From Thermincola carboxydiphila (GTDB lineage: Bacteria; Bacillota; Thermincolia; Thermincolales; UBA2595), in assembly GCA_016841045.1 (NCBI GenBank), contig JAENZX010000001.1, forward strand, positions 19,541 through 83,540: a DNA stretch of 64,000 bases. Reading direction: 5' to 3'. Shown here in pieces: positions 6,864-59,330 of the stretch. The position numbers and the translations under genes are program-made. Positions within the stretch are counted from its first letter, which is position 1; every line of letters begins with the position of its first letter. The notes below the pieces were generated by a model. The model was not told where the DNA came from, did not search any database, and saw only the letters and a list, made by a program, of their open reading frames with translations.

Positions 6864-6986
6864 TTTAGCAGTCCCTCCTCCAATATGTTTGAATTATAAC
6901 ATAGAGAGGCGGGGAGGTTCTGCAGGAAACTGTTGGTAGTTCTCATTTTTCATAAGCTGCATTATTGTGCCTATTTTGTTCGGGCG

Positions 6987-7200
6987 AAGAGTTTAGCCGT
7001 TTGCACGGTTTTCATGGGTTCCCATCTGGTCAACTAAGCCGCATCCAATTGCAAACCCTTGGGTACCCGCCCCAAGCGCCCTCCTAGCGCTGGGCGGCTT
7101 CGGACGTCGTGTCCTCCGCCCGGCGGGTTTACAATTGGATGCGGCAAGTTGACAGACGATGGTAACCCAAATGAAAACCTTAGCAAACGGCTAAACTCTT
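6987..7200. repeat. 214-bp nested palindromic element, copy 1
   Basis: The ends AAGAGTTTAGCCGTTTGC and GCAAACGGCTAAACTCTT are perfect inverted repeats. Moving inward, further stems follow: GGTTTTCAT..CCATC with GATGG..ATGAAAACC, then GTCAACT with AGTTGAC, then GCCGCATCCAATTG with CAATTGGATGCGGC. The head branches into two small hairpins (7069-7091 region, and GGAC-GTCGT-GTCC). Two related copies at 29468 and 52470 keep the fold with different arm sequences. The element lies between divergently transcribed genes. The open frame through it at 7059-7307 has no coding signature. It may be a MITE-like element or a structured RNA gene; no target-site duplication is obvious. Confidence 0.85.
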
Positions 7201-7344
7201 ATTCCATAGCGAAAAAGCGACTCTACTGTACCTTTACGAAAAATGAGAGGGGCGTTGGGGGCGTGAAAAAATGCAAGATAATAGAAGGAAATTACATATT
7301 TTTGTAGTATTAGTATTATTTAGTTAAATATTTTATTGTTCATA

Positions 7345-7435
7345 CCCGATAAAGGCAAACCTATCGAAAGGTGGGGACGCAAAGCCACGAGTCTTAGTAG
7401 TGAATACCACTAAAGATAGTCGGGCCGCCGAAGGA
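7345..7435 (+). ncRNA. c-di-GMP-I (GEMM-I) riboswitch
   Basis: The highly conserved core of the GEMM-I aptamer is present: GGCAAACC, a stem capped by a GAAA tetraloop (CTATCGAAAGGT), then GGGACGCAAAGCCACGAG, a second stem-loop, and the closing GGGCCGCCG. A Rho-independent terminator follows at 7460 and the downstream gene starts at 7533, so the element should set read-through according to cyclic di-GMP. This class senses the second messenger that governs sessile versus motile life. The downstream gene is broken. Confidence 0.93.
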
Positions 7436-7459: not shown

Positions 7460-7497
7460 ACATCTATACTCTTTTAAGGGTATAGATGTTTTATTTT
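7460..7497 (+). terminator. Expression-platform terminator of the c-di-GMP riboswitch
   Basis: ACATCTATAC pairs with GTATAGATGT over a 10-nt loop and is followed by TTTATTTTT. It lies between the aptamer and the start codon of the LtaS-like pseudogene. Confidence 0.8.
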
Positions 7498-7532
7498 TGC
7501 GAAGGGAATATTCTATTATATGGGGGATTCTT

Positions 7533-8886
7533 ATGTCTTTGACAGCACGAAATGAAAATATTGATGAAATTGGTATCATAAAAACTGCATGTCCAGATAA
7601 ATATGTCTATAGATTTTTAACTTTCATTTACGAACTGCTTAAAACTAACCGTGGTGTCCTTTTGATCAATTTTTGTATTTTAGCAAAGCTAGAATACCTA
7701 AGTTGGTGTACTAATGGTTATTTAAAAGCACCGATACTCACTGCTTTTGGTAGTTTGCTGTTGGTCTTAGGCCCGATTATATTTTATTTTCCAAGAAGAA
7801 AAATAATTGTTTCACTTGTAATTGACCTATTTGTATCGGTTCTTATATTTATTGACTTAGTATATTTCCGATACTACAATGACGTATTTTCTCTGTCTTT
7901 TTTATCCTATGTCGGCCAAATCGGGACAGTCGTTGACGGAGTTTTGGATTTACTCAAAATCAGCGATTTATTTATTGTTGCAGATATAATTGTTCTTTTT
8001 CCTCTTTTATTTCCTAAAACAAAGATGTTAAACATCGATGTAAATATAAATCCTAAAGAAATCTTTTCTCATGCAATTACATTCGTACTGATTGCAGTGC
8101 TTTTGTTATTTTCAGGTTTGCCATATGACCGAAATGATAGAATGTTCAATATAAAACATTTTGGTATGCTTTTTTACCACGTTCAAGATCTAGGGGTTTC
8201 TGCTATTAATTTATTTTCTGTCAGTCCTCCCAGCAATGAAGAAAAAGTTCAGGTTTTTAATCGATTTAATTTTACCCCTGAATTGAAACAGAGCCAGTTA
8301 GCCGGTATTGCAAAAGGCAAAAACCTTATAGTAATTCAGGTTGAGAGCTTACAAAATTTTGTAATTAATCTTTCTGTTAACGGACAGGAAATAACCCCAA
8401 ACTTAAATAAATTAGCTCACGAAAGTCTCTACTTTTCAAACTTTTATTCGCAAGCTGCCAATTGGACTACTTCAGACGCCGAATTTATTGTTAACAATTC
8501 GCTCTACCCTATAAAAAATGCACCCGTATATCGTACTTATTATAAAAATACATACCAGTCATTAGCCAAGGTTTTAGGTGATATGGGTTATTCAACTAAG
8601 GCTATGCATGGATTTAGGTCAAGCTATTGGAATAGGGAATCTTTAAAAATTCTGTGCTGGTTATTTATTGGGTAAAGATTTACTCAATTCCAAAAATGGT
8701 ATTGTGATATTTAATGATGGGTCGTACATAGATGCGAATAACATTTATCATGCGGCTTCTAATGATGCATCAAATACTTTAGAACAGCAACAGGTCCGTA
8801 ATGAATTAAGAATTTCTGAATTGATTATTCGAGAGAACATGCTGCCAAATCTAATTAAAAACCACTCACAATATTCCAATTTTTAA
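7533..8886 (+). pseudogene. LtaS-like sulfatase-superfamily membrane protein, internally deleted
   Basis: The first frame (ATG at 7533 after GGGGG, stop at 8675) gives several N-terminal transmembrane helices, then the start of a lipoteichoic-acid-synthase / phosphoglycerol transferase domain: KNLIVIQVESLQ, ITPNLNKLA, and WTTSDAEF with the expected catalytic Thr, up to HGFRSSYWNR. There the frame breaks. The next frame reads AGYLLGKDLLNSKNGIV through 8886, which resembles the extreme C-terminus of the same family. The block of roughly 130-150 residues carrying the remaining metal ligands is missing. This is a deletion plus frameshift, so the protein is almost certainly inactive. It is preceded by an intact c-di-GMP riboswitch. 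The alternative that the two parts are separate functional genes is unlikely because the second lacks a ribosome binding site. Confidence 0.82.
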
Positions 8887-29205: not shown

Positions 29206-29467
29206 TATGAGGCCTCCTTTTTACTGTGTCTACTGGAATAACTTCCGTTTGCGCGTAACATTTTTCACTGCGTCAAACCTTGATTGACCTTTAAAATTAT
29301 CATTTCCAACCCGAAGAAATTTAGTAATTTTCGTAACCTAAAGCCCTGCAAGAAAACTAATGTTAGCACCACAAAGAAGCCTTCCACTTTTTCAGAAAGA
29401 TAAAGAACAACTGCCCCTTCTCGTTTTTCATAAAGTTTCAACCCCAGCGTCTTTTATGCTATAGACT

Positions 29468-29678
29468 AAGAGTTTAGCCGTTTGCGGAGGTTTTCATTGT
29501 GCCACTATCGTCTTTCAACTTACCTCCTAAAATTTCAAATCCGCAGGGCGAAGGCAGGACGCCGAGCCCGCCAGCGCCACGGACGGCGCTTGGGTGGGGT
29601 ACCCAAGGATTTGAAATTTTAGGAGGTTTAGTTGACCAGATAAGGACACCTGAAAACCGGAGTAAACGGCTAAACTCT
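29468..29678. repeat. 211-bp nested palindromic element, copy 2 (inverted)
   Basis: Same family as 6987-7200 but in the opposite orientation. The ends AAGAGTTTAGCCGTTTGC and GTAAACGGCTAAACTCT pair. The inner arm here is ACCTCCTAAAATTTCAAATCC with its exact complement, quite unlike the arm of copy 1, yet perfectly paired. The conserved internal loop reads AACTTT..TATCGTCTTTCAACT against TAGTTGACCAGAT. Head hairpins pair AGCGCC with GGCGCT and GGC with GCC. It lies between the divergent AOR and O-antigen-ligase operons. The rest of 29206-29805 shows only a promoter. Confidence 0.85.
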
Positions 29679-29735
29679 CAGCCCTAGTAAAAACACCTTC
29701 TAATGCAGCTATGAAAAATAGAACGCCCTCATCAA

Positions 29736-44805: not shown

Positions 44806-44855
44806 TCCCGATAATAGCAAACCTATCGAAAGGTAGGGACGCAAAGGTAGAACCG
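44806..44855 (+). ncRNA. Reduced c-di-GMP-I (GEMM) aptamer: only the first stem domain
   Basis: AGCAAACCTATCGAAAGGTAGGGACGCAAAG matches the first stem and joining regions of the GEMM-I aptamer, and is nearly identical to the full riboswitch at 7345. After GCAAAG the expected CC and second stem (tetraloop receptor and the closing GCCGCC) are missing; the sequence goes straight into a terminator hairpin. It may be a truncated, dead riboswitch, or a variant whose second stem doubles as the terminator. Confidence 0.6.
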
Positions 44856-44887
44856 CACCTGCCTCGAAACTCGGCAGGTGCTTTTTC
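44856..44887 (+). terminator. Terminator joined to the reduced aptamer
   Basis: GCACCTGCC-TCGAAACTC-GGCAGGTGC makes a 9-bp GC-rich stem followed by TTTTTCTC. It lies 130 bp before the UPF0182 gene. Confidence 0.85.
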
Positions 44888-45016: not shown

Positions 45017-47770
45017 ATGAAAAAACCCGGACTTTTCCAAATAGTTTTAATTTTACTTGTAATGGCAGCAGTGATAATCAAAACTTTTTCGACCTTGTAC
45101 ATCGATTTTCTCTGGTTCAAAGATTTGGGTTACAGCCAGCTATTCACCATTCCAATCATAACCAAGCTTCAAATTGGAGTAGTGTCTTTTTTAATTTACC
45201 TTGTGTTAATATTCGCAATGGGCCTAATTGCCTTCAGGGTTTTCGTGAATGCCGCAGCACAAGGAGAAAGGGCTAAAAACAAACTTCGTCTTTATGTTAT
45301 TGACAACCTTAGACCTCCTAAGGAAGAGGATGTTACTCCTATTGCCAATAAAAAAGCTGTCTTAATTATTTTTGTAATTAGTTTTATAGTCAGTTTTTTA
45401 ATTTCTCTCGGAGTAACCAAGAGCGGCTGGATGACACTACTGGAATATAGGCATGCCAGCAGCTTTGGGGTCAAGGAATTGGTATTTAACAAAGACGTAT
45501 CCTTCTATATATTCAAAATGCCACTTTATCTCTGGGTGTTGAATTCGCTTTCGTTCTCAATTACAACAGCTTTTCTAACTAGCCTTCTCTCTTACCCTCT
45601 GATGGGCTTAATCAAACTAAAGGGCAGCATTTTCAAAAAACGCAGTGTACACATTCCCCGACCTCTCCGAAGGTTTTGGGCTACACTGACAGGACTTCTC
45701 TTTATCCTTATAGGTATAAAAAAATATTTATCTATCTATGCCATTATGTATTCACAAACAGGTTATGTGTACGGTGCCGGGTATACGGATATTCATGTCA
45801 CGGTACCACTAGCAAAAATAATGACAGTTCTGGCATTCTTATGTGCAGCTATATGTTATCTATACATATTTCTTGATGACCACAGGCTAATTCTCGGTGC
45901 ATTCTCCGTTTACCTGGCGGCCGCAGGTATTGGGTTGGCCGCTTTTGGGCTTATCCAATATAATGTCAGTAATAACGAGTTTGTAAAAGAAAAACCTTAT
46001 ATTGAACAGGAAATTCGTTTTACCAGGATGGCCTACAATCTGGATAAGATAAAAGTAAAAGACTATCCCGGAACAGCAGCAATTACTCCCAAGAACATCA
46101 GCAACAATAAATCAACTATGGAAAATATCAGGCTTAATGACCCCAAGCCACTAAAGACCGTGCTTTCTCAGAATCAAGGCTTAAGGTACTATTATAGGTT
46201 TAATGACATTGATATTGACAGATATAACTTAGACGGCAATTACCGCCAGGTTCTCTTGACAGCCCGTGAACTATCAAAAGAAGCACTTACTGATGACAAA
46301 GCGGCTACCTTTGTTAATCTCACCATGAGATATACCCACGGGTATGGTGTATCAGCCACCCTGGCAAATGAGATTGATGAATCGGGCTATGCAAAATTAA
46401 TAATAAAAGATATCCCGCCGAAGTCTCAGGTAAAGGGAATTCAGATAAAAGAGCCACGAATCTACTTCGGAGAGCTAACTAATGACACTCAGTATGGCTA
46501 CGTTATAGGTAATACAGCTGCGAAAGAGTTCGATTATCCCCAGGGAGACAATAATGTTGAAAATACGTATAAAGGTAAAACAGGCCTTTACCTAACAGGG
46601 CTGAATAAGCTTTTTCTAAGTGCCTACTTTGACACATTTCGCTTTTTTATGGCCAGTGAAATTAATGATAAAAGCAAACTACTAATGAGAAGGAACATTA
46701 AGGACCGGGTCAGGACCCTCATGCCATATCTGAAGTATGACAGCGACCCTTATATTGTCGTTGCTGATAATGGAAAGTTGCACTGGATTATTGATGCTTA
46801 CACATATTCTGATAAATTCCCCTATTCAACCCCCGTGGGAGGCTTGAATTATATACGTAACTCAGTGAAAGTAGTTGTTGACCCTTATGACGGTACCGTT
46901 GATTTTTATTCCTTGGATAATACAGACCCTGTTTTAAAAACTATTTCCAGCATATTTCCCGGGGTGTTCAAAGACCCTGCTGATATGCCAAGTAATCTCA
47001 AAGAACATATAAGGTATGCTGAAGACTACTTCAACATACAAGCCAAAGTGCTGTTGAATTTTCACGTGAATAATCCCTCTGTGTTCTATAATAAAGAAGA
47101 TACCTGGGATGTGGCAAAGAAAATTGAAGAAGGATCAACTGTAAATATCGAACCCTACTATTCTGTAATGAAACTCCCTGGCGAGAAGGAAAGCGAATTT
47201 ACCCTGATGCTTCCTTTCACGCCTGCCAGCCGGCAGGAGCAGCACCGCAACAATCTGGTATCATGGCTTGCAGCCCGTAATGATGGAAAACATTACGGAG
47301 AACTTATCCTTTACAAGGTTCCAAAAAACGTAGAGGTTCAGGGTCCTCTAATGATTGAAAGCCTTATCGACCAAGATACTACAATTTCAACTAAGATGAC
47401 CCTCTGGGGACAAGGGGGTTCTGAGGTGATTAGGGGTAACCTCCTGGCAGTCCCCGTAGACGGAGGCTTTATCTATGTTGAACCTATATACATCAGAGCT
47501 CAGCAGCAGGGAGCATCTATTCCTCAAATGCAGGCTATTGTATTTGCCATTGACAAGAAGATTATCATGGTCGAGACCAAATCCCTCGATAAAACAATTG
47601 CCGCATTCTTTGCCCTTGAAGGCGCTCCGCCAACTCCCGGTGCTGATATTGCAGGCAAAAACAATACCGGAGAACCACGGGTCATAAATCCGAAAGATTC
47701 TATTCTGAAAAAAATCCAACTTCTGAAACAACAGCTTCAGGACTTGGAAAATCAGGTTAAATCCTTATAA
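45017..47770 (+). CDS. UPF0182 (COG1615) large membrane protein
   Basis: A 917-residue protein of the UPF0182 family, normal length. About seven transmembrane helices fill the first 310 residues (FLWFKDLGYSQLF near residue 31 is a family signature). The rest is a large extracytoplasmic domain with NIRLNDPKPLKTVLSQNQGLRYYYRF, RVRTLMPYLKYDSDPYIVV and ETKSLDKTIAAFF typical of the family, ending in a short coiled-coil tail (LKKIQLLKQQLQDLENQV). The function is unknown. GGGGGG lies 7 nt before the ATG. A riboswitch-like leader and terminator precede it. Confidence 0.93.
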   Translation: MKKPGLFQIVLILLVMAAVIIKTFSTLYIDFLWFKDLGYSQLFTIPIITKLQIGVVSFLIYLVLIFAMGLIAFRVFVNAAAQGERAKNKLRLYVIDNLRPPKEEDVTPIANKKAVLIIFVISFIVSFLISLGVTKSGWMTLLEYRHASSFGVKELVFNKDVSFYIFKMPLYLWVLNSLSFSITTAFLTSLLSYPLMGLIKLKGSIFKKRSVHIPRPLRRFWATLTGLLFILIGIKKYLSIYAIMYSQTGYVYGAGYTDIHVTVPLAKIMTVLAFLCAAICYLYIFLDDHRLILGAFSVYLAAAGIGLAAFGLIQYNVSNNEFVKEKPYIEQEIRFTRMAYNLDKIKVKDYPGTAAITPKNISNNKSTMENIRLNDPKPLKTVLSQNQGLRYYYRFNDIDIDRYNLDGNYRQVLLTARELSKEALTDDKAATFVNLTMRYTHGYGVSATLANEIDESGYAKLIIKDIPPKSQVKGIQIKEPRIYFGELTNDTQYGYVIGNTAAKEFDYPQGDNNVENTYKGKTGLYLTGLNKLFLSAYFDTFRFFMASEINDKSKLLMRRNIKDRVRTLMPYLKYDSDPYIVVADNGKLHWIIDAYTYSDKFPYSTPVGGLNYIRNSVKVVVDPYDGTVDFYSLDNTDPVLKTISSIFPGVFKDPADMPSNLKEHIRYAEDYFNIQAKVLLNFHVNNPSVFYNKEDTWDVAKKIEEGSTVNIEPYYSVMKLPGEKESEFTLMLPFTPASRQEQHRNNLVSWLAARNDGKHYGELILYKVPKNVEVQGPLMIESLIDQDTTISTKMTLWGQGGSEVIRGNLLAVPVDGGFIYVEPIYIRAQQQGASIPQMQAIVFAIDKKIIMVETKSLDKTIAAFFALEGAPPTPGADIAGKNNTGEPRVINPKDSILKKIQLLKQQLQDLENQVKSL

Positions 47771-47869: not shown

Positions 47870-49519
47870 TTATTGCTCACTTTCTATACCTAAAATATAA
47901 ATGTTATATCCCCCACTAAGGTTCTTTACACTAAATCCCTTCTGCATCAGAACCCTTGCAGCCACGTACGCCCTAAGTCCAACCTGGCAGTAGACAACAA
48001 TTTGCTTATCTTTGGGAATGTCGCTTATCCTGTCTCTGATATCATCGACAGGAATATTTACCGACCCTTCGATATGACCATCAGAATATTCTTTGGACGT
48101 CCTTACATCCAGCAAAATAGTTTTATTTGGATCAAGGTCCTTTATTTCATGCCAATGTATAACGTCCATATCCCCTTTGAGAATGTTTGCAGCCACAAAG
48201 CCGGCCATATTAACAGGGTCTTTAGCGGAAGAAAATGGCGGTGCATATGCCAGTTCAAGTTCTTCGAGATCGTATACAGTTAACCCTGCACGAATGGCAG
48301 TGGCCAGGACATCTATTCTCTTATCAACACCCTTTATACCAACTGCTTGTGCTCCCAGTATCTTACCGTCTGAGTCAAAGAGCAGCTTAATATTTATCGG
48401 AATCGCCCCGGGGTAGTAACCGGCATGGGAGGCGTTAACGGTATACGATTTCTCGTATGACATACCCAATCTAGTAAGAGTTTTCTCATTATTTCCTGTA
48501 CTGGCAACCACCAGGTCAAAGACTTTGGCAATAGACGTACCCTGAGTCCCTTTATAAGCTGCCTTCCTCCCGGCGATATTATCTGCGGCAATACGCCCCT
48601 GACGGTTTGCCGGTCCAGCCAGAGGTATATATGTCTTATTTCCGTTAACAAAATCAACAACTTCTACCACGTCACCTACCGAATATATACTAGAATCAGA
48701 TGTCTGCATGTACTCATTAACTCTTACAGTACCCCGTTCTCCCAGTTCAAGCCCAGCTTCCCGGGCAAGTTCCGATTCGGGCTTGACCCCTATGGCAAGG
48801 ATAACCGCATCTGCACTTATTACCTCGCCACTTTGAAGAGTTAATTTTTTCAAACCGTTCTCGTCTGCAAAGGATGTAACTCCCTGACTAAGTAACAGCC
48901 TTACACCTTTATCATTTATATGCCGGTAAATAATGCTGGCCATTTCCGGGTCCAGTGGAGCCATTACCTGGCTTGCCGCTTCTACTACAGTTACATTAGT
49001 TCCGAGAGCGTGAATATTTTCAGCCATTTCAAGACCAATAAACCCCCCACCCACAATTATTACCGAGTTAACTCTAGCCTGTGTGAGGTAGAGGGATATT
49101 CTATCGGTGTCGTCCAAAGACCGCAGAGAAAAGATATTTTGCCCATCAATACCGGGAATAGCTGGTCTCACAGGTTCTGCACCCGGTGAGAGGACAATAT
49201 AATCGTATGATTCAATATAGGTTTCACCGGTTTTAGTATTCTTCACTTGTACTGCTTTAGCCTGACGGTCGATTTTTACTACTTCGCTGTTAATCCTTAC
49301 ATCAATGTTAAACCTGGCATCCATACCTGCCGGGGTCTGGACCAGCAGCTCTTCCCTGTCCCTGATAGTACCCCCTATATAGTAAGGCAGACCGCAGTTA
49401 GCAAAAGATATATATTCTCCCCGCTCAAACATCACTATTTGTGCATCTTCATTTAGTCTCCTCAGTCGGGCCGCCGCCGATGCACCGCCGGCAACTCCCC
49501 CGATAACAAGAACCTTCAT
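47870..49519 (-). CDS. CoA-disulfide reductase with C-terminal rhodanese domain
   Basis: A 549-residue flavoprotein. The FAD motif GGVAGGASAAARLRR begins the protein; the single redox Cys is Cys42 in FANCGLPYY, as in CoA-disulfide reductases and NADH oxidases; VGGGFIGLEMAENI binds NAD(P)H. The C-terminal rhodanese domain (about 450-545) has LLDVRTSKEYSDGHIEGSVNIP and active-site Cys in VYCQVGLRAY. CDR-rhodanese fusions (CoADR-RHD) reduce CoA disulfides, per- and polysulfides, fitting sulfur metabolism. The ATG has AGGAG with long spacing upstream. It is complete and intact. Confidence 0.94.
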   Translation of the reverse strand: MKVLVIGGVAGGASAAARLRRLNEDAQIVMFERGEYISFANCGLPYYIGGTIRDREELLVQTPAGMDARFNIDVRINSEVVKIDRQAKAVQVKNTKTGETYIESYDYIVLSPGAEPVRPAIPGIDGQNIFSLRSLDDTDRISLYLTQARVNSVIIVGGGFIGLEMAENIHALGTNVTVVEAASQVMAPLDPEMASIIYRHINDKGVRLLLSQGVTSFADENGLKKLTLQSGEVISADAVILAIGVKPESELAREAGLELGERGTVRVNEYMQTSDSSIYSVGDVVEVVDFVNGNKTYIPLAGPANRQGRIAADNIAGRKAAYKGTQGTSIAKVFDLVVASTGNNEKTLTRLGMSYEKSYTVNASHAGYYPGAIPINIKLLFDSDGKILGAQAVGIKGVDKRIDVLATAIRAGLTVYDLEELELAYAPPFSSAKDPVNMAGFVAANILKGDMDVIHWHEIKDLDPNKTILLDVRTSKEYSDGHIEGSVNIPVDDIRDRISDIPKDKQIVVYCQVGLRAYVAARVLMQKGFSVKNLSGGYNIYILGIESEQ

Positions 49520-52436: not shown

Positions 52437-52469
52437 CTTAGTTTATATTTTTATCTTTTTACTCGAGCA

Positions 52470-52683
52470 AAGAGTTTAGCCATTTACTCCAGTTTCATGG
52501 ATTCCTATCTGGTCAACTAAACCGCCTCAATTTTCAAATCCTTGGGTCCCCGCCAATTCACCGTCCATGGCTCAATGGCGGCTCCGGCCGTCCATGGCCT
52601 CCGCCCGGCGGATTTGAAAATTGAAGCGGTAGTTGACAGACGATAGTAATCCCAATGAAACCTCCGCAAACGGCTAAACTCTT
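52470..52683. repeat. 214-bp nested palindromic element, copy 3
   Basis: Same orientation and length as copy 1. Ends AAGAGTTTAGCCATTTAC and GCAAACGGCTAAACTCTT pair with two mismatches. Inner stems GTTTCAT..GGATT..CTATC and GATAG..AATCC..ATGAAAC carry compensatory changes relative to copy 1 (GGATT/AATCC instead of GGGTT/AACCC; CTATC/GATAG instead of CCATC/GATGG). The arm CCGCCTCAATTTTCAAATCC pairs with GGATTTGAAAATTGAAGCGG. Head hairpins have GTCC and GTCCAT loops. The rest of 52315-52810 holds one terminator and no gene. Confidence 0.85.
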
Positions 52684-52810
52684 AACTTTCAGTAATAACA
52701 AAAAACCATTAAACAAGGGATATAGTGAAAGGGCCAGTGTAGCCTTTATATTTTAGGGCGCTTGGTGTAAAAAAATAACTCTAATATCTTTCATTAGCCA
52801 CTCCTCACTC

Positions 52811-58114: not shown

Positions 58115-59245
58115 CTACTGAAACATTGGTCTTGATCCGGTTTGATAAGTATTCATTATTGTCTGAGTAGTCTGCTCAGTTAACGTGGGAATCTGGTACA
58201 TCCCCTTCTGATTCATGTACTGGAACAGTTCATATGCCTGGTTAATAGCTGAAACCGTACAATTGGTCATCATACTCCGAAGGTTCTGGTCTGCGCACTC
58301 AAGGGCAGCGTTTGCACAAAGTACAGCACTGGCTTTAGCACATCCCATCATACCAGATGCAACATCCCTGTCATCCATTGCATTAACATCGGTATTAGGT
58401 TCAACTGGAGAAGGCTGACGCAGGCCGTATTTGACACTGCTGCTTTTGGGAGCCCTGTAAGGCGCCGCTGAGCCCATACCCTGATTGTGAAGGTAATTGA
58501 CAACGTTTTGGTAACTGTTGTACATGTGGTTAATCTGGCTGTCAAGTATCTGCATCAATGCTTGGTCCTTCACATGCGGCTTATAAAGTTCAAACTGATT
58601 AATTCCATCAATATGGTCGGTCAGTACTTCATGAACCATCATCAATTCAGGAGCACCAAACTTGGGAATTGCCCACTGGCTCTGCTGCCCGGTTTGGCCT
58701 ATTTGCTGGCCCATCTGGCCACCCATGCGTTGGCCCATCTGCTCACCCATTTGCTGGCCTATTTGTCCACCCATGGGCTGTCCCATCTGGCCACCTATTT
58801 GTTGGCCTATTTGGCCACCCATGGGTTGTCCCATCTGGCCACCTATTTGTTGGCCTATTTGGCCGCCCATGGGTTGTCCCATCTGGCCACCTATTTGTTG
58901 GCCTATTTGGCCACCCATGCGTTGGCCCATTTGTTGTCCTGTCTGAGTTCCTATTGATGATCCCAGGGTTTGACCCATTTGATAACCTTGTTGGCCGGAA
59001 TGTTGGCCCATCTGTGAACCAGTCTGCTGGCCCATCTGTGAACCGATCTGCTGGCCGGTCTGACCTGCATTAGTTCCAAACTGGCTACTCAAGTTACTGC
59101 CGGTATGATTCCCAAAAGGATTTCCACCCATCGAACCCCATTTATGGGTATCCTGCGAATCTGACTGCTGTCCTAATTCATTAGTCTTGCGGGTACCATG
59201 AATATCTTCCGGGTTACCGGAAAAATTATTTTCTTTTCTTTGCAA
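58115..59245 (-). CDS. CotF-domain spore coat protein with Gln/Gly/Met repeats
   Basis: A 376-residue protein. The N-terminal half is low-complexity (QTGQQIGSQMGQQTGSQMGQ and three near-identical 16-residue repeats of the GGQMGQPMGGQIGQQI type, about 115-180). The C-terminal part has the two coat F helical regions: MVHEVLTDHIDGINQFELYKPHV...QHIL-like, and MMGCAKASAVLCANAALECADQNLRSMMTN with several Cys. CotF-domain proteins form part of the clostridial and Bacillus spore coat. The start is TTG at 59245 with AAGGAGG 8 nt upstream; the in-frame start at 59263 precedes this site. Repeats like these may favour cross-linking or self-assembly. Confidence 0.88.
   Translation of the reverse strand: MQRKENNFSGNPEDIHGTRKTNELGQQSDSQDTHKWGSMGGNPFGNHTGSNLSSQFGTNAGQTGQQIGSQMGQQTGSQMGQHSGQQGYQMGQTLGSSIGTQTGQQMGQRMGGQIGQQIGGQMGQPMGGQIGQQIGGQMGQPMGGQIGQQIGGQMGQPMGGQIGQQMGEQMGQRMGGQMGQQIGQTGQQSQWAIPKFGAPELMMVHEVLTDHIDGINQFELYKPHVKDQALMQILDSQINHMYNSYQNVVNYLHNQGMGSAAPYRAPKSSSVKYGLRQPSPVEPNTDVNAMDDRDVASGMMGCAKASAVLCANAALECADQNLRSMMTNCTVSAINQAYELFQYMNQKGMYQIPTLTEQTTQTIMNTYQTGSRPMFQ
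58720..58935 (-). repeat. 48-bp tandem repeats in the CotF-like gene
   Basis: About three nearly identical 48-bp units plus degenerate flanking units encode the 16-residue Gln/Gly/Met repeats. All six frames are open over this stretch, producing false Leu-Ala-His and Trp-Pro-Ile-Cys frames on the plus strand. Confidence 0.85.
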
Positions 59246-59330
59246 ATGACATTCCTCCTTCAAACATTTATGTTATTAGGTTTTCCATCAATTTTCATTT
59301 AATGTATAAATTTAATTACTTTTAGCAAAT

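Follow-up and report, generated by a model that had tools for sequence, protein, structure and literature searches.

The intergenic palindromes repeated in this 64-kb window (the whole stretch of Thermincola carboxydiphila DNA analysed here) appear from their sequence to be divergent, high-copy, apparently mobile RNAs resembling the TwoAYGGAY family (RF01731), and they probably bind CsrA. We consider it rather likely that they specify a long-hairpin noncoding RNA akin to TwoAYGGAY and encoded on the strand opposite to that on which a sequence-only reading had described them, with CsrA binding or titration as the most likely action. The TwoAYGGAY family and the prediction that it binds CsrA are already known; what is added here is a divergent, high-copy, dispersed branch.

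The sequence-only reading had reported three intergenic nested palindromes of 211-214 bp, and all three (copies 1-3) were found where it had placed them and could be aligned across their full length (Table 1). That length proved too short, since outer inverted arms common to copies 1 and 2 (TTCTCATTTTTCAT ... ATGAAAAATGAGA) carry the palindrome beyond those limits to ~310 nt in both. The predicted fold of copy 1 has an energy of -130.7 kcal/mol, against -66.0 +/- 4.6 in dinucleotide shuffles (z = -13.9), and the minus-strand fold of 6935-7265 reaches -166.7 kcal/mol. A covariance model, R1, was built from 21 copies and scored copy 1, one of its training sequences, at 148.5 bits (7165-7016, minus), copy 2 at 135.8 bits (29502-29649, plus), and copy 3 at 130.1 bits (52649-52499, minus). 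The conserved internal loop and two-hairpin head that had been noted in the window were also found in relatives. As a type copy, copy 1 stands in having a two-hairpin head but fails in the integrity of its loops: the head is partly degenerate, and hairpin 1 (GGACACGACGUCC) has lost its GGA. A long ORF spanning the element was absent in the copies checked, and we rejected the palindromes as coding DNA.

Table 1. Coordinates of the three window copies and their structural parts (window positions; strand is that of the RNA).
Feature	Position	Strand	Remarks
Copy 1, entire nested palindrome with outer arms	6940..7248	-	core as first described, 6987-7200
Copy 1, outer inverted repeat	6940-6960 and 7232-7248		TTCTCATTTTTCATAAGCTGC (6940-6960) and CTTTACGAAAAATGAGA (7232-7248)
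Copy 1, head hairpin 1	7102..7114	-	GGAC-ACGAC-GUCC, GGA loop lost
Copy 1, head hairpin 2	7075..7091	-	AGCGCUAGGAGGGCGCU, loop with GGA
Copy 1, internal-loop motif, 5' half	7142..7160	-	conserved motif AUCGUCUGUCAACUUGCCG
Copy 1, internal-loop motif, 3' half	7024..7042	-	GCGGCUUAGUUGACCAGAU
Copy 2, entire nested palindrome with outer arms	29417..29723	+	core as first described, 29468-29678
Copy 2, head hairpin 1	29553..29563	+	GGC-AGGAC-GCC
Copy 2, head hairpin 2	29573..29590	+	AGCGCC-ACGGAC-GGCGCU (CANGGANG)
Copy 2, conserved internal-loop motif, 5' half	29507..29524	+	
Copy 2, conserved internal-loop motif, 3' half	29625..29641	+	
Copy 3, conserved palindrome	52470..52683	-	weaker pairing may extend to about 52446-52717
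Copy 3, head hairpin 1	52586..52599	-	GGCC-AUGGAC-GGCC
Copy 3, head hairpin 2	52559..52573	-	around CAUGGACG
Copy 3, conserved internal-loop motif, 5' half	52627..52644	-	
Copy 3, conserved internal-loop motif, 3' half	52507..52525	-	

Several other features were seen in the window. Two c-di-GMP-I riboswitches are present, one at 7345-7433 (+), after copy 1 and before a sulfatase-domain ORF (7497-8675), and the other at 44806-44866 (+), upstream of a UPF0182 ORF (45017-47770). Tandem repeats of 24 bp at 58674-59005, within ORF 58115-59263 (-), encode a Gly/Gln/Met-rich repeat (GGQIGQQIGGQMGQPM). A sub-threshold Rfam match to Vibrio AS7 at 49332-49500 (+; 49.1 bits, cut-off 90) is on the strand opposite ORF 47870-49519 (-) and is probably due to coding similarity.

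The two strands of a perfect palindrome have the same fold, but since a G.U pair on one is an A.C mismatch on the other, mismatches distinguish them. In the orientation of the sequence-only reading, early mismatch counts gave more A.C than G.T, and the opposite strand was therefore assigned as RNA. Among isolated transition mismatches in the arms of ~90 copies, counted in this RNA orientation, 101 distinct contexts were G.U and 47 were A.C (p = 1e-5), and the same count in the T. carboxydiphila genome (G000) alone gave 30 vs. 8 (p = 5e-4). By genome, the G.U excess was marked in G000, G003, and G004 and slight in G001 and G008; in G005 it was reversed, with few counts. RF01731, a model built independently, scores the same strand as the one with the G.U excess. 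The RNA strand is minus for copies 1 and 3 and plus for copy 2, i.e., the opposite of the printed strand on which the fold had been described. The excess could stem in part from a mutational strand bias; such a bias, if it were the cause, would in turn point to transcription or exposure of one particular strand.

That the paired arms change in concert, as had been claimed from the three window copies, was confirmed in an alignment of 21 sequences with 42 structure pairs and 879 pair cells. Standard pairs filled 95.1% of these cells, 23 of the 42 pairs were altered on both sides with pairing kept, and 116 cells were changed on both sides. None of 500 shuffles matched the observed pairing values, and pairing fell to 45-52% when partners were displaced by a single column (31-52% for slides of one to three columns). 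Because related sequences can exceed shuffles, we also built a tree-aware null, in which substitutions inferred by parsimony on a FastTree phylogeny were re-dealt along the branches and pairs were scored by a G-test with average product correction. Under this null, which approximates R-scape from 12 null alignments with the tail extrapolated, five of the 42 structure pairs were significant at E<0.05 over all pairs, compared with none of the 10,836 other pairs. Together, the shuffle, slide, and tree-aware controls amounted to a genome-wide search for stem changes lacking compensation, and the covariation withstood it. Orthologous copies also display uncompensated decay and internal deletion, so single copies are dispensable.

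The count of three copies was an underestimate. BLAST of the T. carboxydiphila genome (4.16 Mb, 75 contigs) returned around twelve complete copies along with numerous fragments, and the R1 profile search found at least 29 loci. R1 matched eight of the nine genomes of the bacterial family and gave no match in the single sister-family genome searched. An exact-pattern scan found matches in two related MAGs, HGW-Firmicutes-8 and HGW-Firmicutes-14; the former holds 39 R1 matches, a few of which are the opposite strand of the same site. Between genera, the stems have been replaced yet still pair and the head is kept, and fixed mismatches and internal loops persist. The outer arms are paired in most copies and end in terminal inverted repeats, the terminal sequence varying among subfamilies. 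Plasmid and phage records and viral contigs gave no element match (viral contigs by exact pattern, 0), and at this sensitivity we discarded a phage or plasmid origin.

Read in the RNA orientation, the head forms a junction that carries two hairpins. Predicted hairpin loops containing GGA were found at least once in 89 of 90 copies and at least twice in 71, and CANGGANG, the textbook CsrA/RsmA site, occurred in 80 of 90. The head hairpins comprise 109 distinct sequences with widely different stems, while their loops keep ACGGAU, ACGGAC, AUGGAU, AGGAC, AGGAG, and similar motifs; the commonest GGA contexts were CACGGAUG, CACGGACG, and CAUGGAUG. In the window, side-by-side GGA loops occur in copy 3 (AUGGAC twice) and copy 2 (AGGAC and ACGGAC), and copy 1 has only one. 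The GGA-to-GGA distance was 24-28 nt in 61 of the 71 two-loop copies, and a spacing of ~25 nt would be suited to a single CsrA homodimer.

Some heads contain additional sequence. Two genera share a type of ~60-nt module (CUGCGGAGC...GCGCUUUAGCGC...) within head hairpin 1 or 2 (loci L013, L015, and L170 of G000 and L105-L107 of G008). Four HGW-Firmicutes-8 loci (L051, L052, L058, and L062) carry a ~100-nt palindrome (CCCCATTTTATTACCGGAACC ... CGTTCCGACAAAATGGGG) in place of head hairpin 1, and in L185 and L192 the same palindrome directly follows the 3' arm. At L055 (2549-2745, HGW-Firmicutes-8), the normal head is replaced by an AT-rich palindrome of CAATTGTCAATTGTC repeats within the usual shell (CCGCCACTAACC ... 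GGTAAGTGGCGG).

An Rfam scan of the window at gathering level gave no match at the elements, and a permissive scan of relatives led to RF01731, TwoAYGGAY, a family listed by Weinberg et al. (2010; PMC2864571). Relatives in three sister genomes pass the RF01731 gathering cut-off of 43 bits (L134, 46.3; L140, 43.2; L138, 43.1 bits). Scores in the window were 40.5 bits for copy 3 (52655-52496, minus) and 36.3 bits for copy 2 (29508-29642, plus), copy 1 fell below the report level, and the best score in the T. carboxydiphila genome was 40.6 bits. Since the window copies are below 43 bits, we call them TwoAYGGAY-like rather than formal members of the family. In other families of the phylum, distant RF01731 members likewise fold into long hairpins of the same plan. 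An RNA family, with the elements as divergent relatives of TwoAYGGAY, is well supported. The Rfam model appears to span only the inner portion of a longer hairpin, and at its cut-off it misses most of the copies described here.

T. carboxydiphila has one CsrA (PF02599, 1e-25), whose translated product keeps L4, R6, and R44, residues known to contact RNA. We surveyed csrA in 398 Bacillota genomes, 40 of which, in 21 families, had RF01731 matches. The gene was present in 39 of the 40 positive and 242 of the 358 negative genomes (Fisher p = 1.2e-5, uncorrected for relatedness). When genomes with R1 matches only were added, it was present in 42 of 47 (p = 0.002), or in 42 of 45 after removal of two incomplete genomes, again uncorrected for relatedness. 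CsrA was undetected in three well-completed matching genomes, all multi-contig: G186 (RF01731), G143, and G312 (both R1). The clan in which Rfam places TwoAYGGAY, CL00106, is that of the CsrA sponges. Proven CsrA-sequestering RNAs are those of Gammaproteobacteria, and we know of no CsrA sponge RNA proven in the bacterial group considered here. The RMfam paper proposed that TwoAYGGAY binds CsrA, potentially as the first such RNA beyond Gammaproteobacteria, with validation still pending, and named it a testable CsrA-binding candidate for Clostridia (PMC4333381).

The elements are dispersed and apparently mobile. In a sister species (G004), three copies are 98.2-99.3% identical over 282 nt with an identical 3' end and unrelated 3' flanks; one of the three diverges immediately ahead of their common 5' part, and no target-site duplication was apparent at any of them. 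Across three species of one genus, copies at orthologous sites were co-inherited and later lost the middle or one arm. Most orthologous sites keep remnants, with no clean empty site, and candidate empty sites in sister species were mostly deletion remnants or held a different core within the same outer arms. Only at the G004:C36 site does an element seem to be missing from both G003 and G005, and the junction there has diverged too far to be defined. Exchange of heads within shared shells was seen at some orthologous sites, where outer arms are common and cores differ, a pattern probably best explained by conversion between paralogues or by insertion at hairpin tips. In two species of one genus, G004:C46 (L278) and G003:C3 (L226) are orthologous shells with entirely different interiors. 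At another orthologous pair, G003:C16 and G005:C21, the flanks differ by 7% and the element by 16%, and all eight double changes are paired. Whether these palindromes were an RNA family or a mobile element had been posed as alternatives, and both halves gained support: the first from kinship with RF01731, the second from the near-identical G004 copies in unrelated flanks and from the dispersed copy number.

Relative to neighbouring genes, elements lay in sense (20), antisense (25), convergent (20), and divergent (10) arrangements; orientation shows no preference, and a role as cis-regulatory element of adjacent genes was rejected. Pfam checks of ten window ORFs turned up no transposase. No promoter could be assigned to the elements. 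A tmRNA at L006 (2289-2616, G000:C60), some 600 nt past an element copy, has a T-loop (GGGGTTCGATC) followed by unrelated sequence, and ARAGORN reports no complete gene there; the interruption looks like a group I intron in the T-loop.

In the mechanism that we favour, each element would be a gene or insertion that specifies a noncoding long-hairpin RNA, transcribed opposite to the strand first described. Its imperfect arms, as long as about 110 bp and interrupted by fixed internal loops, would lead to a head built as a three-way junction and bearing two hairpins. With A(N)GGA in each head loop and the GGA pair ~25 nt apart, this head could dock one CsrA homodimer, and the transcripts might jointly titrate CsrA, as do CsrB and RsmZ in Gammaproteobacteria. 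Copies would spread to new intergenic sites and swap heads, and single copies would decay by deletion. A bolder version, which we entertain only tentatively, is that these are mobile CsrA sponges, i.e., a self-spreading Bacillota RNA whose dozens of copies buffer CsrA and whose spread may itself need CsrA binding.

An unlikely alternative is a plain non-autonomous, MITE-like DNA element, mobilized by an enzyme acting on a folded single DNA strand, with the GGA loops as its recognition marks. Terminal inverted repeats, dispersal into unrelated sites, the identical 3' end of the three recent G004 copies, and decay via deletion are all consistent with such an element, and the one-strand G.T excess would also fit folded single-stranded DNA. 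However, the elements are kin to an Rfam RNA family, and their loops fit the CsrA consensus although the stems below them differ greatly, both of which argue for RNA. No target-site duplication was seen at the three recent copies, and plasmids, phages, and viral contigs gave no match. It is still less likely that covariation arose without selection on folding, through palindromes inserting into palindrome tips and paralogues converting so that both arms change. Shared shells with different interiors, such as L055, the palindromes located within head hairpins, and the comparison of G003:C16 with G005:C21, where the element has diverged more than its flanks and all double changes are paired, could be read in this way. 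Arm-to-arm copying, however, would wipe out the fixed mismatches and loops that persist across genera, and the G.U excess on one strand and the absence of significant covariation among non-structure column pairs also speak against it.

We give a low probability to a folded RNA with another partner, whose GGA loops would have some other protein, or the anti-Shine-Dalgarno region, as their target, or which would serve its own RNA-mediated spread. Some loops are AGGAGG, which is Shine-Dalgarno-like, csrA was undetected in the three matching genomes named above, and the upstream divergence of one recent G004 copy is what 5' truncation might leave; against this, the CANGGANG loop consensus and narrow spacing fit CsrA closely and csrA is present in 39 of 40 positive genomes. 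Bidirectional terminators or 3'-end stabilizers retained at gene ends seem highly improbable. Convergent sites do outnumber divergent ones (20 vs. 10), but 10 copies are flanked by divergent genes and 45, in both orientations, by codirectional ones, and the conserved loops, internal-loop motif, and 25-nt spacing would be left unexplained. Our preferred reading remains a TwoAYGGAY-like RNA that probably binds CsrA. The strand, the loop consensus over ~90 divergent copies, the 25-nt spacing, and the co-occurrence with csrA provide sequence support for testing the TwoAYGGAY-CsrA proposal, and the CsrA question for TwoAYGGAY-like RNAs becomes directly testable. These RNAs may be dispersed, modular, and apparently mobile, which, if true, would be an unusual way of setting the level of a global regulator.

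Like TwoAYGGAY, the elements have a long stem, on the same strand, around two hairpins with AYGGAY-type loops, and their hosts are Bacillota; they differ in having arms some 75 nt longer per side than the Rfam model, loops that include AGGAC and AGGAG types, a copy number of at least 29 in T. carboxydiphila, and heads that can hold inserted modules. CsrB, CsrC, RsmX, RsmY, and RsmZ likewise have hairpin loops with CANGGANG or CAGGACG and paired sites fit for a CsrA dimer. Those RNAs, however, occur in Gammaproteobacteria as one or a few genes with many sites each, whereas the window-type elements have two sites per RNA, dozens of dispersed copies, and very long arms. MITEs, REPINs, and mitochondrial double-hairpin elements are also short, noncoding, dispersed, palindromic, and gene-free. 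For the present elements, by contrast, no target-site duplication (beside three G004 copies) or partner enzyme (among ten window ORFs) was found, and they keep their loops and one-strand wobble bias across genera.
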